Virus record (IMG/VR): IMGVR_UViG_3300050821_002108
Location: 1 to 40,921 of that record
Reading direction: 5' to 3' (one strand)
Source of the DNA: a virus
Length of the DNA stretch: 40,921 bases
A program made the translations under genes and the position numbers. Positions within the stretch are counted from its first letter, which is position 1. Each line of letters begins with the position of its first letter. Below are positions 11,601 to 22,827 of the stretch, one piece after another. A model generated the notes under the pieces. The model was not told the origin of the DNA, did not search any database, and saw only the letters and a program-made list of their open reading frames with translations.

Positions 11601-11719
11601 CACCGATCTTTATGAAACTCACCGAACATCGCAGCAAGGATCATTACAATAATAAACCAGAATCCAAAGAACATTGTCTGCGCTATAAAGATGGCTTTCG
11701 TTAACATCCAGAGAGTCAT
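11600..11719 (-). CDS. Single-helix membrane microprotein (39 aa)
   Basis: This 39-residue protein has one hydrophobic helix (IAQTMFFGFWFIIVMILAAM) and a charged tail FGEFHKDR. ATG overlaps the stop of the 142-aa gene upstream and its TGA overlaps the start of the 24-aa gene. Function unknown. Confidence 0.6.
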   Translation of the reverse strand: MTLWMLTKAIFIAQTMFFGFWFIIVMILAAMFGEFHKDR

Positions 11720-12144
11720 GGATTCGGCCTTTCATCCATTTTAACCCCTTTATATCCTTGCTTCATTGCAAAATCATAAGCTCCTTTGGCTTCATCTTTC
11801 GTTCGATACTGATTTTCCGCTCGCGTATCCACCGCTTTACCACAAATGATGTCTTTGGCTTCACTATCAGCACATTTCACCTGCTGTAAATGCGTCCCAC
11901 TCACCCAACTCACCACATAAACTAATGCCATAGTGACCCACGGTATAAACGGTCGTCTCATTAATGGCTCCTTTGATTTGAATTTTCTATTCATTGTTCC
12001 CACAACGCGCTTAACTGCGTCGCGGGTCGCTTTGACGCCTTTGGGCCGACCCGAACGCTTAATCCCACATTGCCAGTAATGCTTATTCCATAATGAAATC
12101 AGCATTGTCTTTCCACATTTTTTGCATTCTTTAGCTTCCATCAT
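11716..12144 (-). CDS. Zinc-finger and membrane protein with internal start (142 aa)
   Basis: The N-terminal 30 residues hold CKKCG...HYWQC, a likely zinc-binding site, followed by a basic linker (GRPKGVKATRDAVKR). A transmembrane helix lies at about 67-82 (FIPWVTMALVYVVSWV) and an exported-looking C-terminal part carries two Cys (VKCAD, IICGK). Two ATGs (12144, 12141) overlap the previous stop. An in-frame ATG at codon 62 (MRRPFIPW) has AAAGGAG seven nt upstream, stronger than the first ribosome site, so a shorter membrane-only product is likely. Confidence 0.65.
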   Translation of the reverse strand: MMEAKECKKCGKTMLISLWNKHYWQCGIKRSGRPKGVKATRDAVKRVVGTMNRKFKSKEPLMRRPFIPWVTMALVYVVSWVSGTHLQQVKCADSEAKDIICGKAVDTRAENQYRTKDEAKGAYDFAMKQGYKGVKMDERPNP

Positions 12145-12272
12145 TCCTCAAACCCATTAGGCTTTTCTTCCGGAGGTGTCTTGTGACTCATCCCAATAAA
12201 CCAAATGATCCCAATAGCACTGCCCACAAAAACAACTCCAATCGTTATCGCGATAATCGTCGTCAGTGCCAT
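12141..12272 (-). CDS. Single-helix membrane microprotein (43 aa)
   Basis: MALTTIIAITIGVVFVGSA begins one transmembrane helix with a Lys/Glu/Pro-rich tail. The start ATG 12272 is preceded by GGAGGAG and overlaps the TAA of the upstream gene (TAATG). A longer frame from 12326 would need to ignore this signal. Function unknown. Confidence 0.65.
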   Translation of the reverse strand: MALTTIIAITIGVVFVGSAIGIIWFIGMSHKTPPEEKPNGFEE

Positions 12273-12595
12273 TACTCCTCCTTCGATTCGAGTATCCGGT
12301 CCATTTTTTCCATCATCAAATCCCATTGCGGATTACGACTCATCGCTTCATCATTGTAAGCTTCCATGTACCGGATTCCTCGATCGAGAAACCATCCCAG
12401 ACCAAACACGCCCACAAACCCAAAAGCAATCGTCAGGCCCACAACGAAATAGGTATTGGCCATATGCAAGAGATTCTTCAAATGGTTGGACGACGTGATA
12501 CTCAGCAAGATCAAGTTTAACAGCGCCATAAACTGATAGCCCATATCGAATCGGTATTTCCATTTAACAAAAAACCTCCGAAACACTCGTTTCAT
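12272..12595 (-). CDS. Two-helix membrane protein (107 aa)
   Basis: From ATG 12595, which overlaps the preceding TGA, the protein has a basic start (MKRVFRRFFVKWKYR) and two hydrophobic helices (about 20-35 and 50-70, YFVVGLTIAFGFVGVFGLGW) and a Met/Glu-rich cytoplasmic tail. No family recognised. Holin-like topology is possible, but the gene is in the early operon. Confidence 0.62.
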   Translation of the reverse strand: MKRVFRRFFVKWKYRFDMGYQFMALLNLILLSITSSNHLKNLLHMANTYFVVGLTIAFGFVGVFGLGWFLDRGIRYMEAYNDEAMSRNPQWDLMMEKMDRILESKEE

Positions 12596-12810
12596 CTCGC
12601 CACCCATTCTTTGCCATTCCATTCACAAACCGCTGTCGAAATTTGTATATACCTTTCCTCATCAATCGCACAATGCGAAGCATCTGTATCCGCCGCAGCG
12701 GTTGGATGGCCCCCTAACTTCTTTTCCGCATATAAATAAGTCGCCAATAAAAATAAAATCAATCCCAACATTCCTCTCCACGGATCATTGTGCTTCGTAA
12801 ACCACTTCAT
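12592..12810 (-). CDS. Membrane-anchored small protein (72 aa)
   Basis: An N-terminal transmembrane helix (GMLGLILFLLATYLYA, about 13-28) is followed by a 44-residue soluble part with two cysteines (SHCAID, AVCEWNG) that could form a disulfide if periplasmic. Its start overlaps the end of the upstream winged-helix gene by 26 nt. Function unknown. Confidence 0.62.
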   Translation of the reverse strand: MKWFTKHNDPWRGMLGLILFLLATYLYAEKKLGGHPTAAADTDASHCAIDEERYIQISTAVCEWNGKEWVAR

Positions 12811-12991
12811 AACGCTGTATCAATTGATCAAACTCCATCCCAGGACGAATATAGATCTTGTCTTGTTCATAGAGCTGCCCCAACGCATCACGAATTTCGC
12901 TTTCTCCAATCTTCAAAATAGAATATAACTGCGGTATATTTAATGGATGTTTCCTAAGTTCTTCATAAACTCTTTTGCTTACATTTTCCAT
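12785..12991 (-). CDS. Winged-helix-like small protein (68 aa)
   Basis: From ATG 12991, with GAGGGAGGAATT upstream and overlapping the previous TGA, this 68-residue protein has the pattern of a winged helix: helix 1 (SKRVYEELRKHP), a short helix-turn-recognition helix (NIPQLYSILKIGESEIRDALGQL), then a strand-turn (DKIYIRPG). It may be a small transcription factor; no DNA target is suggested by position. Confidence 0.55.
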   Translation of the reverse strand: MENVSKRVYEELRKHPLNIPQLYSILKIGESEIRDALGQLYEQDKIYIRPGMEFDQLIQRYEVVYEAQ

Positions 12992-13482
12992 CAATTCCTC
13001 CCTCGAATCATCTGATACGTCGCCCACAATGGAAACATCACACCAGCCGTTAACCGCATGATCCACGCCGTTAACGGATTCCAATGCTTCTGGGCGTAAT
13101 AGAGCTGGCTATCAATTTCCATGTGTCTTCGTTTTATGGGATGCATTCGCTTGGAGGATTCCCCTCCGATATGCACGCTGCGCCCGATGGGGAGGTAGGT
13201 AAGCTTGTGGCCTTGATCTCGGATGCGTTTGCAGAGGTCGTCTTCTTCACAATAAAGACGATTCTTCCATCCTTGTTCGTCGAAACCTCCAACGCCCCTA
13301 AAGACATCAGAGCGTACACAAATAAAAGCACCAGAAATACTATCCACGTTCCTGGGTCTTTCCAGATCTTCTTTTCGATAGTGCCGAAGTCGTTCAAAGG
13401 GATTTCTCCTAAAAAAACACATCAACTCCGCCCATAACCATAACGGATGAATCTCTTTGGCACAGGAATGCTGCTCTCTCAT
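12991..13482 (-). CDS. GT2 glycosyltransferase, C-terminal half only (163 aa)
   Basis: The sequence DSISGAFICVRSDVFRGVGG, then CEEDDLCKRIRDQGHKL and VHIGGESS, is the C-terminal half of rhamnosyltransferase-like GT2 enzymes, including the ED/EEDD general-base region. The N-terminal nucleotide-binding half and DxD motif are absent: the usual length is near 300. ATG overlaps the preceding microprotein stop, so the fragment is cleanly fitted into the operon rather than being a random remnant. It could act on a host enzyme as a decoy or partner, or be decaying. No membrane helix is certain; the C-terminus (LTAGVMFPLWATYQM) is hydrophobic. Confidence 0.65.
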   Translation of the reverse strand: MREQHSCAKEIHPLWLWAELMCFFRRNPFERLRHYRKEDLERPRNVDSISGAFICVRSDVFRGVGGFDEQGWKNRLYCEEDDLCKRIRDQGHKLTYLPIGRSVHIGGESSKRMHPIKRRHMEIDSQLYYAQKHWNPLTAWIMRLTAGVMFPLWATYQMIRGRN

Positions 13483-13544
13483 TTAGCACTCTGCTGAATC
13501 AGCCACCCGATAATGATCATGGCAACCACCACCCACCATGGCAT
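13479..13544 (-). CDS. Membrane microprotein (21 aa)
   Basis: MPWWVVVAMIIIGWLIQQSA plus K. ATG overlaps the TGA of the upstream gene (TGATG) and the stop overlaps the next ATG. There is no separate ribosome site, so translation would be by coupling. It is one of a run of single-helix proteins. Confidence 0.5.
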   Translation of the reverse strand: MPWWVVVAMIIIGWLIQQSAK

Positions 13545-13729
13545 CAGACGTGGATTCGATCCATGCGTCCGAGGACTCCGAATGCTGAAAGCAACCACAA
13601 CACCACCGCAATCACCACCACAATGTTAAGAATATTCTTGATTTTCGCATCCATCGGAATGTAACTGTTCACAAGCCACAGAAGTACGCCGACCACAATC
13701 AACGTCAACACTACGCTTAGTAAACTCAT
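13544..13729 (-). CDS. Thivi_2564-family membrane protein (61 aa)
   Basis: This 61-residue protein has two hydrophobic helices around a PMDAKIKNIL loop. The pattern SVVLTLIVVGVLLWLVN...PMD.KIK.ILN is that of the small Thivi_2564 membrane family found widely in bacteria and some phages; its role is unknown. GAGGAGGGATAA precedes ATG, which overlaps the previous stop. The C-terminal tail (GRMDRIHV) is extra. Confidence 0.75.
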   Translation of the reverse strand: MSLLSVVLTLIVVGVLLWLVNSYIPMDAKIKNILNIVVVIAVVLWLLSAFGVLGRMDRIHV

Positions 13730-13815
13730 TTATCCCTCCTCATGACGATTGAACTTCCCAAAATACCCATACCCACCATCCCGATAAACGCGACAATCAC
13801 AATCACCGTATCCAT
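13726..13815 (-). CDS. Membrane microprotein (29 aa)
   Basis: MDTVIVIVAFIGMVGMGILG followed by a short basic end (MRRDK). It is preceded by AGGAGAAGAAACT, an excellent ribosome site, and its TGA overlaps the next ATG. One transmembrane helix. Confidence 0.65.
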   Translation of the reverse strand: MDTVIVIVAFIGMVGMGILGSSIVMRRDK

Positions 13816-13826
13816 AGTTTCTTCTC

Positions 13827-13907
13827 CTAAAATGGATAGACCATTTGAAGCATTCCCAATGTCGCTCCAAGGGCAATAATCCCTACACCAAATGCAAGCC
13901 ATTTCAT
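13827..13907 (-). CDS. Membrane microprotein (26 aa)
   Basis: MKWLAFGVGIIALGATLGML plus six residues, one hydrophobic helix. GGAGGAATAATCG lies before ATG 13907, which overlaps the TGA of the upstream 32-aa gene. It stops with TAG 11 nt before the next start. Confidence 0.65.
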   Translation of the reverse strand: MKWLAFGVGIIALGATLGMLQMVYPF

Positions 13908-14002
13908 CGATTATTCCTCCAAGTCATCCAAACCTCAATTATCAGCCCGAGCGTAAACCAAAAACCGAAGAACCCACAAAATCCCAAGAAACTCCAAAGC
14001 AT
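13904..14002 (-). CDS. Membrane microprotein (32 aa)
   Basis: MLWSFLGFCGFFGFWFTLGL with a C-terminal basic end (TWRNNR). It begins 5 nt after the RusA stop; the upstream GCGTGAG is a weak ribosome site. Its last codons contain the ribosome site of the next gene. Confidence 0.55.
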   Translation of the reverse strand: MLWSFLGFCGFFGFWFTLGLIIEVWMTWRNNR

Positions 14003-14007
14003 GATTC

Positions 14008-14358
14008 TCACGCTAATCTCACAATCGCATGAGTTCTCGGCTGCGGATCTTTCCGTACCATTTGCGCGTAAATCCTCACAATCTGCCTGTCATCCTCCCA
14101 AAGTATCCCGTTTGCCGCATCGCTAAAAGCCTTAATTAGATTGTCCAGGTCGCATTTTCCCCCGCAACCATAGAAAGACACATAAAGTTTAAGATCGCCC
14201 GTTAAAACCCCCTTACCGTTCTCTGAACGGGCAAGCCAGAGCTGCCGGCCAAGCTCTTTCTTCTCTTTTGCGCTCGGATCATAGAAATGCCCTTGTTTGG
14301 ACTTGCGGGGTCTTTGCTGAACGATTGGTTTTCCAGGGATCACAAATGAATAGGTCAT
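14008..14358 (-). CDS. rusA: RusA-type Holliday junction resolvase
   Basis: This 116-residue endonuclease resolves branched DNA made during recombination and packaging. The fold is recognisable from the start (FVIPGKPIVQQRPR), and the catalytic acidic residues are present: D70 and D72 in KCDLDNLIKAFSDAANG, and D89/D90 in WEDDRQI. The length is normal for RusA (about 120). ATG 14358 overlaps the preceding TGA. It belongs with the annealing protein (19440-20306) and DUF1376 protein in a lambdoid-like replication and recombination set. Confidence 0.9.
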   Translation of the reverse strand: MTYSFVIPGKPIVQQRPRKSKQGHFYDPSAKEKKELGRQLWLARSENGKGVLTGDLKLYVSFYGCGGKCDLDNLIKAFSDAANGILWEDDRQIVRIYAQMVRKDPQPRTHAIVRLA

Positions 14359-14687
14359 TGATCCTGCCAATTGTTCGAAACTGGAGGTAAAGGCTCTTGA
14401 TATTTACTCGATGCAAAATACATCCACTTTTCCGCTATATCGTGATCGCCTATCATCGTCAATTGATCTAAGTCGTTCGCCTTACAGAATTCAATCCATG
14501 TGTCCTGCATAGCCCCTTCCTGAACATCAGTGATCGTTTTCTCGATTTTGATCTTTAGCTTCTTGGCGATCTCGAAGGGCATCAAGTATCGGCCCCACGG
14601 GAACTGTTTCTCGAAGTCCACTGCCGTCCGTATCTGATCCGCGCTCAGCATGAGCGACAAGAAACCGCGTCCGACTTGTGGGGTCAT
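14355..14687 (-). CDS. Hypothetical replication-module protein (110 aa)
   Basis: ATG 14687 has GAGAGGCG seven nt upstream and gives a 110-residue protein (MTPQVGRGFLSLMLSADQIR...). It overlaps the 3' end of the DUF1376 gene by 161 nt in another frame, an unusually long overlap. No family recognised; position suggests a helicase loader or replication accessory. Its stop overlaps the rusA start. Confidence 0.62.
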   Translation of the reverse strand: MTPQVGRGFLSLMLSADQIRTAVDFEKQFPWGRYLMPFEIAKKLKIKIEKTITDVQEGAMQDTWIEFCKANDLDQLTMIGDHDIAEKWMYFASSKYQEPLPPVSNNWQDQ

Positions 14688-15459
14688 TTTTGCGCCTCTC
14701 TTTAGCGGCCCAAACGACTGCCTTATCGGCAATCGTCCTAAGCGTCCATTTAATCTTCGAACTGGCAAACTCCTTGGCGTGGTAATCAAGAAAGCTAATT
14801 GCACGGTCCACCTCCCCCATGGCATCCAGTATCACCTTGGCCTGTTGCGCCCAGCGTGCCCAAAACCGTTTGTCCCACTCCCGGTCGTCCCACCCCACCC
14901 CTGTGGACTCTTTGTAGTGCATTACCAGCCAGCCGTTAGGGTCCGTTGCCTTGTCCGGACGTTGGTATGGCGAAGCCAAAACAACCCCTGTGGAAGGTGT
15001 TGTAGTTATATCTAACTTCTGACTTCTAACATCTAACTTCTTATGCGTTAGGTTTGCGTTAGGTTCTGCGTTATTCGATGAGTTATGTTTGTGGTAGAAT
15101 CTCTTCTGTCTTTCGGATTGATTTTTAAGTTGTTTCTTATCTCTTGATATTCTTCTACTAGTAATAATATTGAATATTTTTTCCATATCTTCTTGTTCAA
15201 TTTCATCTTCTGGAACCTCTCGCTTCATATCAAAAAGTTTACGATCCCAGAATAGACAAAGGAGTGCCATTGCTTGGTCTAATTCCATATTCCAAAGGGT
15301 TGTTATGGCTTGGTTAGAAAGCACAACAGTTCCATTTTTGGAGTTCATCCATATGTAACATATCAATGTTATCCATGCCCCGCGTTGCTCCATCGTAAGC
15401 GTCTGCGAATCCATCAGAAAGTCTGAAGGGTAAAACTGCATGTATGGCAATTTGCTCAT
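14527..15459 (-). CDS. DUF1376 replication-initiator-like protein
   Basis: This 310-residue protein begins with YMQFYPSDFLMDSQTLTMEQ and GAWITLICYIWM, the signature of DUF1376, a winged-helix domain of phage replisome organisers. A charged linker (about 95-150, with RRISRDKKQLKNQSERQKRF) and a second domain (about 165-255, WDDREWDKRFWARW...) follow. The family acts at the phage origin, by analogy with DnaA/DnaD-like and lambda O-like proteins. Translation starts at ATG 15459, 10 nt after GGAGGA, and that ribosome site is predicted to be base-paired in the leader (15460-15559). Confidence 0.8.
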   Translation of the reverse strand: MSKLPYMQFYPSDFLMDSQTLTMEQRGAWITLICYIWMNSKNGTVVLSNQAITTLWNMELDQAMALLCLFWDRKLFDMKREVPEDEIEQEDMEKIFNIITSRRISRDKKQLKNQSERQKRFYHKHNSSNNAEPNANLTHKKLDVRSQKLDITTTPSTGVVLASPYQRPDKATDPNGWLVMHYKESTGVGWDDREWDKRFWARWAQQAKVILDAMGEVDRAISFLDYHAKEFASSKIKWTLRTIADKAVVWAAKERRKNDPTSRTRFLVAHAERGSDTDGSGLRETVPVGPILDALRDRQEAKDQNRENDH

Positions 15460-15559
15460 TTAAATAAGATCCTCCGTAGGGCAGTAGGCAGGTGTGATGA
15501 GCATCGACCGCGCCGCTACGGAGGAAAATAGGTCCGTTGGATTTTGGTCTATGCTCATC
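15460..15559 (-). promoter_or_regulatory. Structured leader with predicted pseudoknot at the ribosome site
   Basis: The minus-strand RNA has two perfect, interleaved inverted repeats. GATGAGCAT (15559-15551) pairs with ATGCTCATC (15504-15496), and TCCTCCGTAG (15525-15516) pairs with CTACGGAGGA (15479-15470). The order A-B-A'-B' is that of an H-type pseudoknot. Segment B' contains the GGAGGA ribosome site of the DUF1376 gene, so pairing would block translation. The start site expected from the promoter at 15566-15594 falls on the first base of A, so the RNA would begin exactly with the structure. It could be a translational switch, a binding site for an autoregulatory protein, or DNA repeats of an origin. 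Confidence 0.65.
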
Positions 15560-15565
15560 GCCTAA

Positions 15566-15594
15566 ATGATGGAACATATGTAAGGGTTTGTCAA
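15566..15594 (-). promoter_or_regulatory. Promoter candidate for the DUF1376 gene
   Basis: TTGACA (15594-15589), 17-nt spacer, CATCAT (15571-15566) on the minus strand, in the 180-nt gap upstream of the replication gene. The predicted start site is near 15559, at the 5' edge of the leader structure. The -10 element is weak (4 of 6). Confidence 0.55.
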
Positions 15595-15639
15595 CTCCAA
15601 AAACCATCTCACCATCATTTGTTTGTGGGTCATTTTTTG

Positions 15640-15831
15640 TCAAATGATTTCTTTTCGTTCTCTCATAAAGAAGCTGAGTGCCTGAGAAATCTTTCCGGCG
15701 TTTACAGATCCAAAAAATGAAAAACTTGAGTCCCCGCTCACTAATTTAAGATCTTTGATTTCAGATAACCTTTGAAAATCATTTAGTAATAACCTATAGC
15801 AAACAATTTCATTTATTAAATCGCTTGTCAT
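15640..15831 (-). CDS. Hypothetical protein (63 aa)
   Basis: This 63-residue protein (MTSDLINEIVCYRLLLNDF...) has GAGGGGAAAAA before ATG and overlaps the preceding TGA. Mixed alpha/beta composition; no motif recognised. It is the last gene before the leader region of the replication gene. Confidence 0.6.
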   Translation of the reverse strand: MTSDLINEIVCYRLLLNDFQRLSEIKDLKLVSGDSSFSFFGSVNAGKISQALSFFMRERKEII

Positions 15832-16004
15832 TTTTTCCCCTCCTCTTTCTCATTGAGCTTCTTTGCATGAAGCTGAGCATAGCGTCGAGCGTTGGGGCCG
15901 TAAAACCTAGCGTTAGAAAGATTGTAATCACCGTCAATGAATTCAAGCACTTCCCATTGCCGATCATATGATTGATAATTCTTAACCGCCTTAAACTTTT
16001 TCAT
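15828..16004 (-). CDS. Hypothetical protein (58 aa)
   Basis: This 58-residue basic and aromatic protein (MKKFKAVKNYQSYDRQWEVL...) has ATG overlapping the preceding TGA and its own TGA overlapping the next ATG. It looks like a compact soluble domain with Tyr/Arg-rich ends; function unknown. Confidence 0.65.
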   Translation of the reverse strand: MKKFKAVKNYQSYDRQWEVLEFIDGDYNLSNARFYGPNARRYAQLHAKKLNEKEEGKK

Positions 16005-16105
16005 TGGAGTGCCTGTAGAAGTTTAATAATGGCATCGAGTTTATCAACGATAACTGAAAACATAATCAGGCCAAATGAGAGGATCATGAGCGTGTCCATT
16101 TTCAT
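16001..16105 (-). CDS. Membrane microprotein (34 aa)
   Basis: MKMDTLMILSFGLIMFSVIV and a short amphipathic tail. GAGGAAAGGAA lies just before ATG, which overlaps the preceding stop, and the TGA overlaps the next start. One transmembrane helix. Confidence 0.6.
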   Translation of the reverse strand: MKMDTLMILSFGLIMFSVIVDKLDAIIKLLQALQ

Positions 16106-16365
16106 TTCCTTTCCTCTTTCCGCTGCTCATTAAGAGCTTGGATTAAATCATCCGCTCTTCTGACTGCCATATTTGCTATTCCCTGGAGAACGCTAGCCAT
16201 TTTAAAAGCTTGAGATTCATTTTCAGGTTGCAAAGTATGAAAACCGCTTAATATTCCTTGCATCGCCATCGCCGCAAAATACTCCCTCTTCGTGAGGCCG
16301 ATATGAATAGCGTCTTTGCTCATATCTGTTTCTAGCGGATTAATCGGATCATTTGGATTTGTCAT
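16102..16365 (-). CDS. Phage protein with LTKREYFAAMAMQGIL motif (87 aa)
   Basis: The start ATG 16365 (MTNPNDPINPLE) is preceded by GAGGAGGAAACAAAGA. The central stretch LTKREYFAAMAMQGILSG is a recurring element of small phage proteins encoded in recombination and replication regions, with unknown role. Residues 45-87 are helical and charged. It overlaps the end of the upstream gene by 17 nt. Confidence 0.68.
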   Translation of the reverse strand: MTNPNDPINPLETDMSKDAIHIGLTKREYFAAMAMQGILSGFHTLQPENESQAFKMASVLQGIANMAVRRADDLIQALNEQRKEERK

Positions 16366-16573
16366 TCTTTGTTTCCTCCTCGAATAGAGCAAGAATATTC
16401 GAAAGATTCTGTAAAGCAATATCTCTCGGTGTTGGACCTTTCACATAGGCTCTAGCATCACAAGCGTTTAAAACTTTATCAGCCGAATCTTTTAACCTTT
16501 TTGCCAGCATTTTCCAGCGGTCGCGGTCATACGTTAACTCGATAAGGGCATTTTGCCAGTCAAACTCGGTCAT
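16349..16573 (-). CDS. Helical hypothetical protein (74 aa)
   Basis: This 74-residue helical protein (MTEFDWQNALIELTYDRDRW...) overlaps both neighbours. It is similar in size and layout to other accessory proteins of the operon. No motif recognised. Confidence 0.6.
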   Translation of the reverse strand: MTEFDWQNALIELTYDRDRWKMLAKRLKDSADKVLNACDARAYVKGPTPRDIALQNLSNILALFEEETKNDKSK

Positions 16574-16980
16574 CGCTTTTCCTCTTTCCCCTGATCGTTG
16601 AGCAGAGACAGAATAGATCCTGAAATCTCTAAATCACAATCGCAACATTTAATCTTCGCCGCCTTCTCTATCGCATCCTTGAAGCCTTTTGAATAATCTT
16701 CTTTGGACCATTTAGCACTATGAATAGCGGCCAAATCTTTGCGAGCTGCTTCATATCCTTCGGCGTGAGCTTCTCGTCTTACATCTAAAAATCCTTGGCT
16801 ATAAGTTTTCGCCAATGCCCTTTCCTCTGCTTCCTCCACCTTCTCCCTCGCATACGTTTCGAGAGCTGCGGTAATGTCATCACGCATCGCGCAGAAATCT
16901 CCTTTGTGTGGAAATTCGCAATGGACCTCGGCTATTTCTTTTGCTATCTGCTCCGCCGTCTTCGCTCTGTTGTCGGTCAT
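16570..16980 (-). CDS. Hypothetical protein with C-terminal CCDCD element (136 aa)
   Basis: This 136-residue protein is mainly helical and Glu/Ala-rich in residues 40-75 and ends with IKCCDCDLEISGSI, a possible metal site with the Cys at about 31. The start MTDNRAKTAEQ is partly duplicated upstream at 17252-17270, where an abortive MTDNRG frame remains. It overlaps the previous TGA. Confidence 0.62.
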   Translation of the reverse strand: MTDNRAKTAEQIAKEIAEVHCEFPHKGDFCAMRDDITAALETYAREKVEEAEERALAKTYSQGFLDVRREAHAEGYEAARKDLAAIHSAKWSKEDYSKGFKDAIEKAAKIKCCDCDLEISGSILSLLNDQGKEEKR

Positions 16981-16983
16981 TTA
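16965..16983. repeat. 19-bp direct repeat, copy 1
   Basis: CTCTGTTGTCGGTCATTTA occurs here and at 17252-17270. It carries the first codons (MTDNR) of the 136-aa gene. See the copy for interpretation. Confidence 0.85.
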
Positions 16984-17240
16984 ATAGTCCTCAATGTTTC
17001 GCTTTCCTCAATAGCTTTTCTCGCTTTTTCAAGATATGGATAATGCGCCTCTCCGTGATTCCAATCATGCAGTCCATTTTTCATCTCATACATCCAGCCG
17101 CATCCATCCGTATGGTTATATCCGCAAGAATGGTCATGGATAAGAATAGCGAGTTTACCCGCCAATGATTCGGACATTATTCTGCTGTCTCTTTCAAAGA
17201 CTAGGGCTTCTATTTCTTTGTCGTAATCTCGTTTATCCAT
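16977..17240 (-). CDS. His/Cys-containing hypothetical protein (87 aa)
   Basis: This 87-residue protein has a central HDHSCGYNHTDGCGWMYE block with three His and two Cys, possibly a metal site, between two helices. Its ribosome site GGTGAGGATTAA is part of a 15-bp duplicated linker (17238-17252 and 17411-17425). No known family recognised. Confidence 0.62.
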   Translation of the reverse strand: MDKRDYDKEIEALVFERDSRIMSESLAGKLAILIHDHSCGYNHTDGCGWMYEMKNGLHDWNHGEAHYPYLEKARKAIEESETLRTIK

Positions 17241-17270
17241 TTAATCCTCACCTCTGTTGTCGGTCATTTA
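17238..17270. repeat. Duplicated gene-start linkers
   Basis: Two different linkers lie here back to back: CATTTAATCCTCACC (17238-17252), repeated at 17411-17425, and CTCTGTTGTCGGTCATTTA (17252-17270), repeated at 16965-16983. Each holds a ribosome site or start codon region. A 6-codon MTDNRG frame is left between genes. This looks like the trace of gene insertion or shuffling by short homology. Confidence 0.75.
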
Positions 17271-17413
17271 TCAAACCTCATATACCTAAATTCCAAAGGC
17301 CAGAGAATTAGAAACCACAATACACGTCGAGTATCGTCGGGCCACCACCCATATTTAATGAATCGCGCCCTAGGCCAAAATAACAATTGAAGACTGTGTT
17401 TCCCGATTCTCAT
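17264..17413 (-). CDS. Trp-rich membrane-associated small protein (49 aa)
   Basis: This 49-residue protein is rich in Trp, Phe, Arg and Leu, with a hydrophobic stretch RRVLWFLILWPLEFRYMR that could sit in or on the membrane. GGGTGAGGATTAA precedes ATG. It is flanked by the duplicated linkers described at 17238-17270, so it may be a recently gained gene. Confidence 0.55.
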   Translation of the reverse strand: MRIGKHSLQLLFWPRARFIKYGWWPDDTRRVLWFLILWPLEFRYMRFDK

Positions 17414-17440
17414 TTAATCCTCACCCTTCCTTTCTGAGAT

Positions 17441-17533
17441 TTAGTGAGCGCGGAAAGGACATGGAATATGCTTAGTCCATTCGCGCTTAGTCTTAAACCA
17501 TTTGAGACAATTAAGACACCACCATCTATTCAT
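17441..17533 (-). CDS. Zinc-finger microprotein (30 aa)
   Basis: MNRWWCLNCLKWFKTKREWT followed by KHIPCPFRAH: a CxxC pair and a HxxxC/H pair in the spacing of a classical C2H2/C2HC-like finger. There is no strong ribosome site (weak) and the start is chosen as the only ATG. Function unknown; possible nucleic-acid or protein binder. Confidence 0.5.
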   Translation of the reverse strand: MNRWWCLNCLKWFKTKREWTKHIPCPFRAH

Positions 17534-17557
17534 AATTAATGAGCGCGTGGTCGGAAT

Positions 17558-17812
17558 TTATTCTTTATTTCTCGACGGTTGTTCGCAAGCCAATTTTTCA
17601 GCTTCTGCCATCGGTAACATTTGTTCGTCACGAATGGATTTACCAGTCCACATATACGCTTCTTCGAGAGCCGTCATTAGCAATGACTTATAGCGTCCAG
17701 AAGATAACGATTGGTCTGCAAATGTTTCTATTGCTTCGAACAATTCTTTAAACTTCGCCTGCACTTCGGTTGATCTGTCGTTGTATTTCACGTAACTGAA
17801 TCTATGGCTCAT
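17558..17812 (-). CDS. Acb2/Tad1-hairpin-like protein, probable cyclic-nucleotide sponge (84 aa)
   Basis: This 84-residue protein starts at ATG 17812 behind AAAGGAGATAT. The stretch GRYKSLLMTALEEAYMWTGK (39-58) matches the R..SLA.T.LEEA.MW..KAI signature of the Acb2/Tad1 hairpin domain. Acb2 proteins are small hexameric phage proteins that bind cyclic di- and trinucleotides and thereby block CBASS (and related) defence. The N-terminal Tyr/Lys region (SYVKYNDR) is where ligand contacts lie in known Acb2, but I cannot verify equivalent residues. Length fits (about 90). It lies in the early operon directly after a tRNA-like RNA, a fitting place for anti-defence genes. Confidence 0.65.
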   Translation of the reverse strand: MSHRFSYVKYNDRSTEVQAKFKELFEAIETFADQSLSSGRYKSLLMTALEEAYMWTGKSIRDEQMLPMAEAEKLACEQPSRNKE

Positions 17813-17855
17813 TTTTATATCTCCTTTTGATATTCGCTCCACGCGCTCAAATTGT

Positions 17856-17982
17856 TCGGGGCGGCAGGAATTGAACCTGCTGCCACCTGCTGATACGCTT
17901 AATGGCTACACCATCGTGGCTGATGCCCTCGCCATTTTCTATCAGTCAGACCAAAGCGTGTCACCGTCCACGCCGCACCCCG
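17856..17982 (-). tRNA. tRNA-like RNA with an oversized central region
   Basis: The minus strand has a perfect 7-bp acceptor stem (CGGGGTG 17982-17976 with CGCCCCG, discriminator A at 17856), a D-arm-like hairpin (GCGT/ACGC, loop with GG), and a canonical T-arm (GCAGG-TTCAATT-CCTGC) joined directly to the acceptor. Between D-arm and T-arm lie about 75 nt instead of the usual 22-45. They contain an 8-bp hairpin with one mismatch (TGACTGAT/ATCAGCCA) and ATGG/CCAT, but no clear 5-bp anticodon stem with 7-nt loop. CCA is not encoded. It could be a tRNA with an insertion or intron, a decayed tRNA, or a tRNA mimic. It starts 3 nt after a stop codon and is cotranscribed. Confidence 0.55.
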
Positions 17983-17985
17983 TAG

Positions 17986-18189
17986 CTATTTTTCCTTCCC
18001 TAGATTTTCAATTCGTTCTAAAGCTTCTTTTGCTCTTTCATAATCTTCACCCCATACGTCGTAATAATAATCCAACGCCTCAATAGCAATGCTGAGTGCA
18101 TCTATCAGTTTTCCTGTAGACGGCTTCCAATTAGGAGAAGCGGATTCTCTTAAATTGTCAACCCATTCCGGCAGGTTGTTGGGGGTCAT
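17986..18189 (-). CDS. Hypothetical protein (67 aa)
   Basis: This 67-residue acidic helical protein (MTPNNLPEWVDNLRESASPN...) overlaps the stop of the PIN fragment upstream and ends just before the tRNA-like RNA. AAAGGTGAATT precedes ATG. Small proteins of this type (helix, LIDALSIAIEALDYYYDV, EDYERAKEALERIE) are common in phage early regions, with unknown role. Confidence 0.62.
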   Translation of the reverse strand: MTPNNLPEWVDNLRESASPNWKPSTGKLIDALSIAIEALDYYYDVWGEDYERAKEALERIENLGKEK

Positions 18190-18263
18190 AATTCACCTTT
18201 TGATTTGCGCCATGCAATGAAGACGGAAGAATCCCAGTAGTAAATCGGCTTAACGTTCGGCAT
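18186..18263 (-). pseudogene. PIN-domain N-terminal fragment (25 aa)
   Basis: MPNVKPIYYWDSSVFIAWRK plus five residues: the first strand and catalytic-aspartate motif (YYWDSSVFIAW) of a PIN ribonuclease, as in VapC-type toxins. It ends with TGA after 25 residues instead of about 130-160, and the remaining acidic motifs are absent downstream. Overlaps with both neighbours (ATG within the previous gene, TGA within the next) keep it in the operon. It may be a remnant, or a retained peptide. Confidence 0.5.
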
Positions 18264-18516
18264 CCCGGAGCCTTCTTACAAAATCTTCCGATTTCAAATT
18301 GCCAGTCGCATCTGGCGCAATCCCACGAAGTGCAAGGATGGACGGCAATTCGTTTTCCGGTGGTTCACAGTCATGGTTAAGCTCTGCGATTTTCTCAGCC
18401 ATCTTAAGACGATGGACGAGAGACATAAGAGTTTCATGTTCTATGTGATGATTGAATCCTCTGAGTACATTACTGACACTTTTCAATTGTTGTAAATCTT
18501 CATCTGTGAATTTCAT
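18250..18516 (-). CDS. Hypothetical protein (88 aa)
   Basis: This 88-residue mostly helical protein (MKFTDEDLQQLKSVSNVLRG...) contains His-rich NHHIEHETLM and a Pro-rich loop HDCEPPENELP. It overlaps the stop of the alanine-repeat gene. No family recognised. Confidence 0.62.
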   Translation of the reverse strand: MKFTDEDLQQLKSVSNVLRGFNHHIEHETLMSLVHRLKMAEKIAELNHDCEPPENELPSILALRGIAPDATGNLKSEDFVRRLRDAER

Positions 18517-19064
18517 TTCGATTTAACCTTTTGGTCTTTTATCAACATATTAAGACCATAATTTAGGATACGAAGCTGCATTTCTTTTTTGGCGGCGGCG
18601 GCGGCGGCGTAGGCGGCGTCGGCGTAGGCGGCGGCGGCGGCGGCGTAGGCGGCGTCGGCGTAGGCGGCGGCGGCGGCGGCGTAGGCGGCGGCGGCGGCGG
18701 CGGCGTAGGCGGCGGCGGCGGCGTAGGCGGCGGCGGCGTAGGCGTCGTAGGCGGCGTTTCTATTCCCTTCCGTGTCATTCGCTAGAACGGTCTTTGCCGC
18801 CTCAATTGCCTTTCGCGGTCGCTTATCCTCTGGATATTTCTTCTCAAACATTTCAATTACTTGTTCAGCCGCGAAGATCGCATAAGCTAAATACTGAGGT
18901 CTTGTCATAACGCGAACGATAAGCCAATTCGCCCAGTCCGATTGGTTTTCTTTAATAAGTTTTTTAAGAACTTTAATAGAATTGGTTTCTTTTTGGTTCA
19001 TAAACCAAACTATTCCTTCTGAACAAGCATTTTTTTCTTTAAGAAATTCTTTTGTCAGTTCCAT
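18513..19064 (-). CDS. Alanine-repeat protein, Imm5-like (183 aa)
   Basis: The first 95 residues (KEKNACSEGIVWFMNQKETN, then NWLIVRVMTRPQYLAYAIF and KKYPEDKRPRKAIEAAKTVL) match proteins annotated as putative immunity protein, Imm5-like, present in many phages and bacteria. Residues about 103-158 are an uninterrupted Ala/Tyr/Asp repeat (units such as AYAAAA, AYADAA), encoded by a GCG/GTA-rich tandem repeat. The C-terminal helix (KKEMQLRILNYGLNML) is normal sequence. The Ala-rich segment is part of the family but its length here is likely variable through replication slippage. The biological role in phages is not established. Confidence 0.65.
   Translation of the reverse strand: MELTKEFLKEKNACSEGIVWFMNQKETNSIKVLKKLIKENQSDWANWLIVRVMTRPQYLAYAIFAAEQVIEMFEKKYPEDKRPRKAIEAAKTVLANDTEGNRNAAYDAYAAAAYAAAAAYAAAAAAAYAAAAAAYADAAYAAAAAAYADAAYAAAAAAKKEMQLRILNYGLNMLIKDQKVKSK
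18590..18756. repeat. GC-rich tandem repeat (GCC/TAC-type triplets)
   Basis: About 165 bases consist of GGCGGC, GTAGGC and GTCGGC triplet combinations on the plus strand with no interruption. It is in frame within the Imm5-like gene. Its base composition is far from that of the surrounding genome. Triplet units keep the frame when copies are gained or lost. Confidence 0.9.
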
Positions 19065-19067
19065 TCT

Positions 19068-19262
19068 TTATCCCCCTTGTCGATTAACAAGACGTTCATA
19101 TTCTTCAAACAAAACTCGCCATAAATTAGCTTCTGCCTTTGCTGCGTCAAGTTCCCTTAAAAGATATGGTGTGTCCCAATGCCACGCTTCCGGTTTCATG
19201 GCTATCCATAGCTCGGACTGTCTACGGATCTGGGCTAGGCGATCGGCGTCATTTTTATCCAT
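19068..19262 (-). CDS. Hypothetical protein (64 aa)
   Basis: From ATG 19262 (MDKNDADRLAQIRRQSELWI...) the protein is 64 residues, helical, with a WHWDTPYLLRELDAAKAE block common in short phage proteins. It overlaps the preceding gene by 8 nt. An alternative GTG start 15 nt upstream (19277) exists. Confidence 0.62.
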   Translation of the reverse strand: MDKNDADRLAQIRRQSELWIAMKPEAWHWDTPYLLRELDAAKAEANLWRVLFEEYERLVNRQGG

Positions 19263-19443
19263 GCTGTTGTGGACCACCCATGTTAATAGTAGCCTGTGTA
19301 TTTAATTTCGCTCGATGCGCTTCGACTTTGATTTCGCTCACAATCTCGGCATTACGATTATTCAGTTCTCGAATCGCTTGAATGTTTCCAACCATTTCTG
19401 AGAGTAACGCATTGTTTAGGTACTCCGTTGATTTGCGTCTCAT
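19255..19443 (-). CDS. Hypothetical helical protein (62 aa)
   Basis: This 62-residue protein (MRRKSTEYLNNALLSEMVGN...) is helical, possibly a short coiled coil (AIRELNNRNAEIVSEIKVEAHRA), and ends in a polar tail. ATG overlaps the preceding TGA. It follows the annealing-protein gene and may be an accessory of it; no family recognised. Confidence 0.62.
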   Translation of the reverse strand: MRRKSTEYLNNALLSEMVGNIQAIRELNNRNAEIVSEIKVEAHRAKLNTQATINMGGPQQHG

Positions 19444-20306
19444 CCAAGTGTTCCGAAAGCGTCAATCCATTCGACGAGATCATTAACCGCTTGCCATGGA
19501 AGAGAGCGTGTATCGGTAACGTTATATCGAGTTTTCATAACTCCTTTGAAGGCATTGTCGGGGATATTCGCGGCCTTACATTTTGCATATAGGAGTTTGC
19601 ATTGTTTATCGCTGATCGTCCCCCTGGGTTCTACAGGAGCCAGTTTCTTCGGATTAGCCTTCGGATGTTCTGGGATCGGAGTTTCTAGCGTCTCCTCGTC
19701 CAATATCTCTTCAGCCGCGTCTATTTCGTCAGGAATAGGCCCAAACTCATCTTCAAGAGTCTTAGCCTCATTAATAGGTTTAGGTGTCTTAAAGATGACA
19801 TCAAGAGGTCTGGGGGCCTTCATTTCTTCCGTAAGATCTTCGTAGGGCGTTCCTTCTACCCCTGCAAGTCTTGCAATGGGTCGAAATAGGTTCGCATAAG
19901 CCTTAGCCGCCGAGCGCGTTTGAGCCATCGACGCAAGCTGAAACAGTGGTTTATTACGCCACATGCTTTCATCATCCAAACAATAGGCTTCCGCTCGTCC
20001 TATTTCCTCGCCATCTTTAAGAATTTGACTTTTGGCCTTAAAGCCTTTATGACCATCGACCTCCACAAATTGAGCTTCAAAAGTCTTAGCAGTACATCCA
20101 TAAAAGCTACCGATATATTGCCAATCCTCGTATTCCGGGTACCGTTTCGCTTTATCGTCTTTTCCGAAGAATAATTTATTCTTACCTTCTGTATTCAAGA
20201 AGGCTTTCACCTTCTCGACGATCTCTTGAGTGGAAGGCCCCGAAGAAATTATTTCTCCCGTGTTTCCGTTGACTAACTCTTTCTTTGGTTCAATCGTTTT
20301 TTCCAT
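19440..20306 (-). CDS. Single-strand-annealing-like recombination protein (288 aa)
   Basis: The core (about 55-165) has DWQYIGSFYGCTAKTFEAQF, then AEAYCLDDESMW, then MAQTRSAAKAYANLFRPIAR (127-146) followed by LAGVEGTPYEDL. The MAQTRA.SKA...LAG.E.TP.E pattern is found in phage recombination proteins of the Erf/Rad52-like annealing groups. Residues 170-220 are an acidic, Pro-rich linker. The C-terminal block (230-285, ISDKQCKLLYAKCK...) is like the small C-terminal domain in such proteins that contacts SSB or DNA. With RusA it suggests phage-borne recombination. The exact subfamily is uncertain. Confidence 0.65.
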   Translation of the reverse strand: MEKTIEPKKELVNGNTGEIISSGPSTQEIVEKVKAFLNTEGKNKLFFGKDDKAKRYPEYEDWQYIGSFYGCTAKTFEAQFVEVDGHKGFKAKSQILKDGEEIGRAEAYCLDDESMWRNKPLFQLASMAQTRSAAKAYANLFRPIARLAGVEGTPYEDLTEEMKAPRPLDVIFKTPKPINEAKTLEDEFGPIPDEIDAAEEILDEETLETPIPEHPKANPKKLAPVEPRGTISDKQCKLLYAKCKAANIPDNAFKGVMKTRYNVTDTRSLPWQAVNDLVEWIDAFGTLG

Positions 20307-20487
20307 TTTTCTTTTCCTCCATAGTTTCTAAAACTGAAGCGATCATATATTGAGACTGAGCCAAACAAGCTAAACGCGATTGCGCTTCTTTTTGGAATGG
20401 ATCGTCTTCGATCTGGGCCATATGAACGGCCAGTCGCCATGACCGATAAAAAATATTAGGAATGCTGTTCATGTCGTAAGGTTTCAT
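20290..20487 (-). CDS. Hypothetical protein (65 aa)
   Basis: This 65-residue helical protein (MKPYDMNSIPNIFYRSWRLA...) contains two Cys-free helices and ends in a basic tail (EEKKNGKND) whose codons carry the ribosome site of the annealing-protein gene (AGGAAAAG). It overlaps that gene by 17 nt. Confidence 0.6.
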   Translation of the reverse strand: MKPYDMNSIPNIFYRSWRLAVHMAQIEDDPFQKEAQSRLACLAQSQYMIASVLETMEEKKNGKND

Positions 20488-20696
20488 GGTTCAAGCCTCT
20501 TGGTTGGCATGTACATCTGCATTTCTTCGTCCATTATCTCATCAGCCCATTCTGTTGCCCAGGCCAACGCTTCTCGATAGTCGTATTGATGCTCTTGCAA
20601 GAGATGATTCGCGTATTCCTTGATTCCTTCATATTGTCTCGGATCATCGACGGAACATTCCGAGCATTTATCGTAAACCGTTTCGTAGTTAAGCAT
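20484..20696 (-). CDS. Hypothetical acidic protein (70 aa)
   Basis: The start ATG 20696 has GGGGG seven nt upstream and overlaps the previous TAA (TAATG). The protein (MLNYETVYDKCSECSVDDPR...) has a CSEC pair near residue 11 and an acidic, Met- and Trp-rich helical part. Function unknown. Confidence 0.6.
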   Translation of the reverse strand: MLNYETVYDKCSECSVDDPRQYEGIKEYANHLLQEHQYDYREALAWATEWADEIMDEEMQMYMPTKRLEP

Positions 20697-20872
20697 TAGT
20701 GCCCCCAATGTTTTGCGAGTTTCATAACGAGCATGGACGCTTGCGCTATTGCGACAAAACCAAAGCTACAAAGCGCACTCCATACCAGAATCTTCTCGAA
20801 GAGGTTTAAGCGTTCCATTCGAGCACGTTTTCGACGATCTTGTTCTTCTTTGAACCAGTTGTATGAGTTCAT
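20696..20872 (-). CDS. Small membrane protein (58 aa)
   Basis: The protein has a charged N-terminal half (NWFKEEQDRRKRARMERL) and one transmembrane helix (ILVWSALCSFGFVAIAQASM). GTGGGAGGAGTCCG lies before ATG. The stop overlaps the next gene's start. Confidence 0.65.
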   Translation of the reverse strand: MNSYNWFKEEQDRRKRARMERLNLFEKILVWSALCSFGFVAIAQASMLVMKLAKHWGH

Positions 20873-21105
20873 CGGACTCCTCCCACACGTTTGGATTTTC
20901 GTCGTTCATAGCCATATTTCTTAAGGTAGTGGTTCGTAAGCTCGTCTTCAGCAGCCTTAATAACTGCACCGATCCTAACCATCAAAGGCCGCGCATAGGC
21001 CATGCTTGCCGGACGACCTCCGTAACGTTTTTGCATCAGATTATCAACCGACTGAATATAAAGTCTGATCGAAGTAATGATTTCCGACTTCAATTTTTCA
21101 TCCAT
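20869..21105 (-). CDS. Basic helical protein (78 aa)
   Basis: This 78-residue protein (MDEKLKSEIITSIRLYIQSV...) contains KRYGGRPASMAYARP and a basic C-terminus (YERRKSKRVGGVR). It overlaps the zinc-ribbon gene upstream by 8 nt. Possibly nucleic-acid binding by charge; no family recognised. Confidence 0.6.
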   Translation of the reverse strand: MDEKLKSEIITSIRLYIQSVDNLMQKRYGGRPASMAYARPLMVRIGAVIKAAEDELTNHYLKKYGYERRKSKRVGGVR

Positions 21106-21232
21106 TGGATGCTAACCTTTGCTCTGCTTCCATGATGGCATCGAAAATCTCCGTACAGTCAACGCTACAAAGAGAACTTTCATTCTTACGTTTTAAAAGA
21201 ACACCACACTGAAGACAGCGTCTATTTGGCAT
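21098..21232 (-). CDS. Zinc-ribbon microprotein (44 aa)
   Basis: MPNRRCLQCGVLLKRKNESS followed by LCSVDC: CxxC...CxxxC, a four-cysteine zinc site in the first 26 residues, then a short helix. TAAGGAGGTCATTTCC precedes ATG (a full Shine-Dalgarno core), and the start overlaps the 3' end of the other zinc-ribbon gene. It may act as a small transcription or translation modulator; not established. Confidence 0.7.
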   Translation of the reverse strand: MPNRRCLQCGVLLKRKNESSLCSVDCTEIFDAIMEAEQRLASNG

Positions 21233-21356
21233 TGGAAATGACCTCCTTATTCCAATCGTATTTCTGGCACCGAGGACATTTAGCCGGATTTGTAACTCTG
21301 GGTAGCCATTGATGCTTACATCGTTTACATTTCACCGTCGAAAGATTGTTTTTCAT
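21222..21356 (-). CDS. Zinc-ribbon microprotein, first early gene (44 aa)
   Basis: This protein carries CKRCKHQWLPRVTNPAKC and PRC: two CxxC pairs separated by a typical zinc-ribbon loop. It is the first gene of the early operon, and ATG 21356 coincides with the expected transcription start, so it would be translated from a leaderless mRNA. Such ribbons are frequent as small phage proteins and in rubredoxin-like folds. Function unknown. Confidence 0.7.
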   Translation of the reverse strand: MKNNLSTVKCKRCKHQWLPRVTNPAKCPRCQKYDWNKEVISNAK

Positions 21357-21362
21357 AGCTCA

Positions 21363-21391
21363 AGTTTACCACATCATGATGTGGTAGTCAA
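21363..21391 (-). promoter_or_regulatory. Early promoter with palindromic operator
   Basis: TTGACT (21391-21386), 17 nt, TAAACT (21368-21363) on the minus strand. The spacer is almost entirely a perfect 20-bp palindrome, TACCACATCATGATGTGGTA (21367-21386). This is the layout of a repressible promoter. Six bases separate the -10 element from ATG 21356, so the mRNA would be leaderless. No adjacent repressor gene is present. Confidence 0.75.
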
Positions 21392-21410
21392 GAGAAATCT
21401 TTCAACAAAA

Positions 21411-21445
21411 TAAAAAGCCCCTATCCTAATTAAAGGATAAGGGCT
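21411..21445 (-). terminator. Intrinsic terminator of the late operon
   Basis: On the minus strand an 11-bp stem with one mismatch (21435-21445 with 21416-21426) and an 8-nt loop is followed by TTTTTATTTT. It lies between the last late gene (ending at 21482) and the early promoter, and insulates the two operons. Confidence 0.88.
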
Positions 21446-21481
21446 TATCGCTTAATGAGCGGTTAACTACTTAAACGAAGT

Positions 21482-21910
21482 TTAAGAAGCTGCTGGCGGT
21501 GTAACAGTTGTCGGCGTCGGTGCAACTACAGGGGTTGCAGTCTTCGGTGGTACCAGGGCAATGATCTGGTCTACCAAAGGGCTTACAGCGGTCAAGGCCG
21601 CATCCAGGTCTTTTAGGGCCTGGGACGGGTTACTTTTATCTGCATAGGCCTGTTTTAGGTCTGTAATGGCCTGAACGAGGTCCGGCAACGCTTCTCGAAG
21701 CTCGCTCGCCGCCGCTAAGGCTAGTTCAATGTCGGCAAATACTCCCATTTTCTTTCTCCTTTCATGGAGACGATGCTCGATAAACTCCTTTACGCCTAGG
21801 GCGCGAGTGAGTTTATCGAAGATCTCTTCTCCGTGGGCTATCGTGATGACCAGGCTTGTGAATATGCCTGTTGTAGCGGTTATGACGTTGTGGACGGTCT
21901 GCCAGCTCAT
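21482..21910 (-). CDS. Membrane protein with internal start, holin-like (142 aa)
   Basis: Residues about 5-26 form a hydrophobic helix (VITATTGIFTSLVITIAHG) followed by a basic segment (EHRLHERRKK). The rest (from residue 55) is a soluble Ala/Leu/Asp-rich helical bundle with a Pro/Thr/Val tail (VAPTPTTVTPP). The in-frame ATG at codon 55 has AAAGGAGAAAGAAA upstream, so an 88-residue soluble form starting MGVFADIELALAAASELREA is very likely made. It is the last gene before the terminator and near the endolysin, so a lysis role is plausible. Confidence 0.65.
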   Translation of the reverse strand: MSWQTVHNVITATTGIFTSLVITIAHGEEIFDKLTRALGVKEFIEHRLHERRKKMGVFADIELALAAASELREALPDLVQAITDLKQAYADKSNPSQALKDLDAALTAVSPLVDQIIALVPPKTATPVVAPTPTTVTPPAAS

Positions 21911-22209
21911 TAAGCCGGCGTGGTTCCTAGGGCCGCTGTCGCTGCTGTAATGGCAGTTTTAACGGACGCATCCATTGAATTGACGCCTGTATCTTCGGTC
22001 GTCAAATCAACCGGAGTTCCCCCTTGCTTTGCAATCAACTGATTGACTAGGGCAAGAAGTGCCGTGAGGTCGGTTCCGAGTGTCGCTAGGTCTGTATCGA
22101 ACTGCGTTTGGCTAATAGCCATGGCTTGTATCTCCTTTTGGATCTCGATTAGTATGTCTTCAATGAATTTTACTCTCTTTTCAAAATAATTAAACGTGAA
22201 GTTTTCCAT
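21910..22209 (-). CDS. Lysis-region coiled-coil protein with internal start (99 aa)
   Basis: The chosen start ATG 22209 (MENFTFNYFEKRVKFIED...) has GAGGTGG directly upstream. A second in-frame ATG at 22122 (MAISQTQFDTDLATLGTDLT...) has AAAAGGAGATACAAGCC upstream, also a strong site, giving a 70-residue protein. The short form has heptad-like Leu spacing and an Ala/Thr-rich C-terminus, like small phage coiled-coil proteins. No family recognised. It overlaps the next gene start. Confidence 0.62.
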   Translation of the reverse strand: MENFTFNYFEKRVKFIEDILIEIQKEIQAMAISQTQFDTDLATLGTDLTALLALVNQLIAKQGGTPVDLTTEDTGVNSMDASVKTAITAATAALGTTPA

Positions 22210-22217
22210 AAACCACC

Positions 22218-22799
22218 TCATTGCCAATTTCCGGGGACTACTGTTGGAGTCGAGTCGATAATTCCCCAGATACAATCTGAAATATAGTCCACAACAAATT
22301 GGCAAGTCACTGAAGAAATCTCAGGAACGACCCAGCTTGTTGTTGAAACATTCGGAGGAGGAACCGCAAACGTCATGGTGCTTGTACAGGCACTATATAA
22401 AAGTCCTGCCGCCGCCGCATCTTGTGCACGAGCATAGCTCGTTCCATCGGCCCAACCATATACATACGTATAGCTATCAACCGTCACGAGATTTTGTAGA
22501 AGATCCGTAGTCGTAATAGGAGGGTTATAGTTTGGATTGGTTCCAAAGAGCGTCATATTGTAAGTATCAGGGAAGAATGGATTAACCACCAAGTTCACAT
22601 TAAACTGAGTCGTTACCGCCTGAATTAGTTGTTGTTCGACCGTTTCCGGCGTTCCTGTACTTAGCTGTATTTGCGAGAAAGCGTGAATATCGGGAGAGAC
22701 GAAACCGAATGCACCCACAATTAACAACCACCGGATCAATGGGTACACAGAAATCGGCTGTTTTGTGATAAGCGAAATGATCTGATTTAGGATGCCCAC
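22218..22799 (-). CDS. Exported or membrane-anchored protein (193 aa)
   Basis: The GTG at 22799 is preceded by GAGAGGTG and gives MGILNQIISLITKQPISVYP, then a hydrophobic segment (LIRWLLIVGAFGFVSPDIHA) that may be a signal anchor or signal peptide. The rest is Thr/Pro/Tyr-rich with four Cys (SACTS, VTCQF, DCIWG) and beta-strand character. It follows the endolysin gene. A longer frame begins upstream inside the endolysin gene, but the GTG has the better signal. Function unknown, possibly spanin-like or a surface protein. Confidence 0.62.
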   Translation of the reverse strand: MGILNQIISLITKQPISVYPLIRWLLIVGAFGFVSPDIHAFSQIQLSTGTPETVEQQLIQAVTTQFNVNLVVNPFFPDTYNMTLFGTNPNYNPPITTTDLLQNLVTVDSYTYVYGWADGTSYARAQDAAAAGLLYSACTSTMTFAVPPPNVSTTSWVVPEISSVTCQFVVDYISDCIWGIIDSTPTVVPGNWQ

Positions 22800-22827
22800 A
22801 AATACACCTCTCGAGATCTGACATTTT

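Follow-up and report, generated by a model that had tools for sequence, protein, structure and literature searches.

C4 RNA acts by covering a ribosome site (PMC5320573; PMC12197685), and a feature of the C4 family is processing by RNase P, which yields a stable, trans-acting small RNA (PMC5320573). The annotated order in P1 is promoter, C4, target sites a2 and b2, and icd, with b2 ending 10 nt before the icd ATG. The Rfam model RF01695 finds P1 at 68.8 bits, and the kil hairpin of the phage-plasmid P4, which is the C4 (CI) antisense RNA, scores 74.9 bits to the same model. A pseudoknot with a proposed translational role has been described in the gene 32 leader of T4, T2, and RB69 (PMC3014915). 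The replication initiator of I-complex plasmids needs translation of a leader peptide (PMC10286972), and translation of repA (repZ) in ColIb-P9 and the I-complex is set by RNA structures that include a pseudoknot (PMC10286972; also the titles of works cited in PMC10724649). Likewise, translation of orf45 is needed for anrP in the IsrK-orf45-anrP system of Gifsy-1 (PMC4825925).

The locus described here lies in a window (the whole stretch of DNA analysed) that consists of one IMG/VR virus record, 40,921 bases long, from an uncultured phage. Near the leader, every larger gene is on the minus strand, and an intergenic gap of 180 bases extends from the end of a 63-codon ORF (15640) to the start of a DUF1376-type gene (15459). 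The minus-strand leader (15559-15460) contains two perfect helices, S1 of 9 bp and S2 of 10 bp, with interleaved arms. Both inverted repeats had been reported in an initial annotation and are exact, and the 3' arm of the second includes the GGAGGA ribosome site, as that annotation stated; it overlooked the longer S1 arms, a leader ORF (15558-15460), and the alternative nested folds. The elements of the leader are:

15559-15551, minus strand: core of the S1 5' arm, GATGAGCAT; from the sequence, an exact inverted repeat with 15504-15496.
15504-15496, minus strand: core of the S1 3' arm, ATGCTCATC; from the sequence, an exact inverted repeat.
15546..15559, minus strand: extended S1 5' arm, GATGAGCAT(A)GACC; inverted repeat I1, 14 nt, 93% complementary.
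15496..15509, minus strand: extended S1 3' arm, GGTC(G)ATGCTCATC; inverted repeat I1, paired in the predicted MFE fold.
15516..15525, minus strand: S2 5' arm (anti-SD), TCCTCCGTAG, inside the S1 hairpin loop; perfect 10-bp inverted repeat I3.
15470..15479, minus strand: S2 3' arm, CTACGGAGGA; from the sequence, inverted repeat I3.
15475-15470, minus strand: Shine-Dalgarno (SD) GGAGGA within the S2 3' arm; from the sequence, 10 nt before the DUF1376 ATG.
15518..15537, minus strand: small inner hairpin of ACGGA (15537-15533) with UCCGU (15522-15518); predicted MFE fold.

With the inner extension GACC/GGTC, the 14-nt S1 arms contain a single mismatch, and the anti-SD is enclosed by 20 predicted pairs. 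The inner hairpin of the predicted MFE fold and S2 would compete for the anti-SD.

Two open reading frames bear on the leader:

14527..15459, minus strand: DUF1376-type gene, probable replication (primosomal) protein of 310 aa; profile and weak fold matches.
15460..15558, minus strand: 32-codon ORF filling the leader (MSIDQNPTDLFSSVAARSMLITPAYCPTEDLI), candidate coding; from the sequence, with ATG at 15558 and a TAA that directly abuts the DUF1376 ATG.

The DUF1376-type gene is likely, although not proven, to be a replication gene. Its product matches phrog_9327 ("primosomal protein") with E=1e-7 from residue 1 and PF07120 with E=8e-4, the latter below the curated cut-off, and shows weak fold matches to phage DUF1376/replication proteins. 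Its structure prediction is low in confidence, and a PDB search with the predicted structure was uninformative. A 109-aa ORF (15314-15643) that overlaps the DUF1376 start was judged spurious: it has no family match, and the profile matches from residue 1 fix the DUF1376 start. The leader ORF was also considered as an Ash or Icd peptide, the peptides that overlap C4, and was rejected, family and database searches giving no support. A 163-aa ORF at 12991-13482, near the replication module, gives a weak galactosyltransferase match (PF02709) below cut-off.

The arrangement of S1 and S2 is rare. It is the sole interleaved pair totalling at least 17 bp in the window, and GATGAGCAT has no other exact occurrence there. 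Interleaved 9+10 pairs were absent from 60 dinucleotide shuffles of the whole window. The site having been chosen in the initial annotation, the shuffle figures for the leader are post hoc: such a pair arose in 6 of 100,000 shuffles of the 180-nt intergenic stretch alone, and an antisense of at least 10 nt to the leader SD in 16 of 20,000 shuffles of the upstream sequence with the SD kept fixed. Corrected for the few dozen leaders in the window, the S1/S2 arrangement remains unlikely by chance. The folding z-score of the 120-nt leader is -3.1.

Without pseudoknots, the optimal nested fold is the S1 hairpin (-32.9 kcal/mol), and the nested fold with S2 forced is at -30.7 kcal/mol. The S1+S2 pseudoknot reaches about -36 to -42 kcal/mol under standard penalties, including a small 3' hairpin, in a loop-penalty estimate made with rough parameters from a single sequence; harsher penalties give -35.7 kcal/mol, of which -32.9 belongs to the knot and -2.8 to the 3' hairpin. 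By this estimate the pseudoknot would be at least as stable as either nested fold, the energies being rough and the three folds differing by a few kcal/mol. Its loops of 20, 6, and 16 nt should be long enough for a knot. When growing transcripts from 15559 are folded as prefixes, S1 is complete before the SD is transcribed. Longer transcripts, with starts farther upstream, favour S2 as a plain hairpin because the S1 5' arm is then taken up by the upstream bases UAUGUUCCAUC:

15568..15578, minus strand: TATGTTCCATC, which can pair with the S1 5' arm in longer transcripts, freeing S2 as a simple hairpin; folds of longer transcripts.

In the nested ensembles, pairing of the SD amounts to 82-98% across all transcript starts tried (unpaired fraction 0.02-0.18). 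Masking of the SD by leader structure, as initially proposed, is well supported in silico, the SD being mostly paired in every fold computed. The thermosensor that had been suggested as one possible role was rejected, because nothing melts between 20 and 50 C in the predicted folds; the predicted unpaired fraction of the SD stays flat at 0.15-0.18 over this range.

Two promoter-like sites, equal in score, precede the leader:

15566..15594, minus strand: promoter-like TTGACA-17-CATCAT, from which the RNA start would be near 15559; consensus scan, 10/12.
15614..15643, minus strand: second promoter-like TTGACA-18-AATGAT, from which a longer leader would result; consensus scan, 10/12.

Transcription had been predicted to start on the first base of S1. 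A start near 15559 does follow from the first of these matches. Promoter-like matches, however, are not enriched in the region relative to shuffles (6 against an expected 7.0), so that the start at 15559 is a guess. An identical TTGACAAA occurs in both sites (15643-15636 and 15594-15587), and three ATCATTT/AAATGAT half-sites (15648-15641, 15621-15614, and 15572-15564) overlap the promoter-like hexamers. It is possible that 15564-15648 is a repressor-controlled double promoter. Further inverted repeats crowd the leader region, for example CCATCATTT/AAATGATGG over both promoter-like sites.

Our best reading, to which we give an even chance, is that this leader, known from one genome only, is a default-off translational leader of the replication gene. 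The stretch 15559-15460 would then be a cis-acting control element of DUF1376 translation. The long S1 hairpin would form during transcription, its loop carrying the 10-nt exact complement of the DUF1376 SD region. Once the SD was made, 16 nt further on, the loop would pair with it to form S2, giving an H-type pseudoknot atop S1 or, with S1 open, a simple hairpin. GGAGGA would be hidden in either state, leaving translation off by default, and opening of S1/S2 by ribosomes on the leader ORF, by a protein, or by another RNA, the candidate openers, would raise DUF1376 translation. Translation of the leader ORF is the best, if unproven, candidate for the "on" route. The pairings, their rarity, and the C4-like layout are observed; we infer that the leader RNA would be made, would fold as proposed, and would repress.

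The leader ORF could also carry the main role. It would be translated, its ribosomes would open S1/S2, and DUF1376 would be expressed by reinitiation, with precedents in I-complex replicons (PMC10286972) and in IsrK-orf45-anrP (PMC4825925). The ORF extends from the first S1 bases right up to the DUF1376 ATG, and its codon score falls between those of in-frame and out-of-frame pieces, leaning slightly to coding. However, no SD precedes the ATG at 15558, which itself lies within S1, and an RNA starting at 15559 would carry next to no leader; family and database searches found no homologues of the peptide, and an open stretch of 32 codons is not rare by chance. Coupling of this kind is considered unlikely. 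It is rather unlikely that the leader has no RNA function at all and that the repeats arose by chance or serve at the DNA level, for example as operator half-sites around the promoter or as a short coding stretch. A site picked post hoc in a single genome would fit such an origin, and the crowding repeats over both promoter-like sites would suit repressor sites. Against this stand the rarity of interleaved 9+10 pairs in shuffles of the intergenic stretch, the folding z-score, and the placement of S2 exactly on the gene's SD; moreover, the S1 arm core is exact nowhere else in the window, unlike a repeated operator.

Alternatively, the leader might be the source of a genuine C4-type antisense RNA: the S1 hairpin, about 64 nt long (15559-15496), would be released, accumulate, and repress DUF1376, and perhaps other SDs, on other phage copies, resulting in copy control or superinfection immunity. 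This would agree with the layout shared with C4 of P1 and P4, and the SD CTATGGAGGA (20324-20315) of gene 19440-20306 can pair with all 10 anti-SD bases, one pair being G-U. From this complementarity, 20315-20324 is a possible second trans target of the leader anti-SD, although near matches to the target in the window (32, with 24.9 expected) are not above chance. The cofold of the leader hairpin with its target gains little over separate folds (-32.6 versus -31.2). The leader also shows no second inner hairpin, no second (a') target, and no terminator after S1, it gives no match to the Rfam C4, c4-a1b1, or isrK models even at permissive thresholds, and no integrase or repressor was recognised. 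A released C4-type RNA is accordingly judged quite improbable. It is a similarly long shot that the leader is a compact, independently evolved C4-like riboregulator, whose own hairpin would repress the replication gene in cis as a pseudoknot and in trans when released, such that synthesis of the replication protein would fall as phage copies accumulate.

The proposed default-off leader was also considered in the light of other phage starts. A blind scan of 705 kb, most of it phage DNA (the IMG/VR window, contigs of related phages, lambda, P4, and parts of T4 and P1), examined 1,829 SD-bearing starts for exact upstream antisense of at least 10 nt covering the SD. Three of the 1,829 starts have such an antisense, and in two of the three, the DUF1376 leader and P4 kil, it lies inside a long hairpin; P4 was added since C4 was already suspected, and few known phages were scanned, making this a consistency check and not an unbiased discovery. 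The third match is a plain hairpin with a 10-nt loop. P1 C4, with its 8-nt target, falls below the 10-nt cut of the scan. At L005:13202, the SD of a 302-codon ORF is covered by a perfect inverted repeat of 13 nt (loop of 10 nt), which may be a plain SD-masking hairpin or an upstream terminator.

Searches of viral, genome, phage, and plasmid collections found no close relative of the DUF1376 gene or of its leader. The nearest DUF1376 proteins retrieved share 31-54% identity with this one along short N-terminal stretches, and the leaders of these distant genes, too diverged to count as homologous, show no comparable antisense. Terminase and portal retrieved relatives that have virion genes in common with this phage (at 70-80% identity in the closest) and not the early module; in six virion-gene relatives the terminase is 73-80% identical and the early regions are unrelated. 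Compared with 11700-23000, the six related phage contigs (L020-L030) share virion genes, many at 60-86% identity, and almost none of the early region, a pattern that indicates sharp modular exchange of replication genes. The exact S2 pattern had no match in viral contigs, and the exact S1 pattern matched nine stretches, none of which on inspection has the anti-SD layout downstream. The 18-mer CCTACTGCCCTACGGAGG gave one match, which looks coding and was set aside. BLASTN matches of the leader to phages and plasmids all had E of 3 or more, and RusA and its neighbours, used as bait, retrieved distant RusA proteins only. The region 18513-19064 encodes a 183-aa Imm5-like protein (PF21805), strong in phrog_38757, whose sole match in the phage collection is from the archaeal Methanosarcina virus MetMV (48.5% identity over 102 residues).

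The initial annotation knew of no described phage element like this leader, which overstates the case: the layout is that of the C4 antisense RNA of P1/P7 and P4, and a regulatory pseudoknot is described for T4 gene 32 (PMC3014915). In C4 and the P4 CI RNA, as in the leader, a hairpin lies just upstream in the same transcript, and its loop complements the SD of the next gene. This trait is present here as a 10-nt exact complement over GGAGGA. In P4, the pairing over the kil SD is between 10 nt, GGCAGCCTCC, and GGAGGCTGCC, resembling S2 of the leader, and the spacing of b2 to icd in P1 equals that of the leader SD to its ATG. The outer stem is also present. However, the leader hairpin is shorter (64 nt versus about 77-88), with one substantial inner hairpin predicted in place of two and one target stretch in place of a' plus b', and its target is the replication gene itself, whereas C4 targets kil or icd. 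A search of 15300-15800 with RF01695 gave no match at the gathering threshold or at E up to 10, and Rfam as a whole, at gathering and permissive thresholds, returned only implausible matches. Given the lack of an RF01695 match and the missing second inner hairpin, the leader was not filed as C4; as far as sequence and predicted fold go, it is C4-like in layout and not a member of the family.

As in T4 gene 32, the predicted pseudoknot lies in the leader of a phage replication gene. The T4 pseudoknot, 67 nt ahead of the start codon, is a nucleation site for gp32 binding and does not itself pair with the SD, whereas S2 of the leader would pair with the SD. The I-complex and ColIb-P9 repA (repZ) leaders likewise place a short leader ORF and RNA structures before a replication gene. 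The ColIb-P9 pseudoknot switches translation on, and its antisense RNA is separate and comes from the opposite strand; in contrast, the predicted knot of the DUF1376 leader would hide the SD. IsrK-orf45-anrP of the Gifsy-1 prophage shares with the leader mutually exclusive folds, complementarity between an early and a later segment, and a small ORF with a stop codon that adjoins the following start codon (PMC4825925), but the leader has neither a match to the isrK model nor a terminator that would yield a free small RNA. If real, the leader would bring a phage replication gene under direct translational self-masking. The C4 layout, an upstream hairpin with the anti-SD of the next gene, would then seem to have arisen outside that family, and a simple geometric scan could pick up such leaders where family models miss them. 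SD masking and C4-like layouts are already known; the form described here, in which one hairpin bears the anti-SD of the replication gene that it precedes and probably folds as a pseudoknot, looks to be a new version of them.
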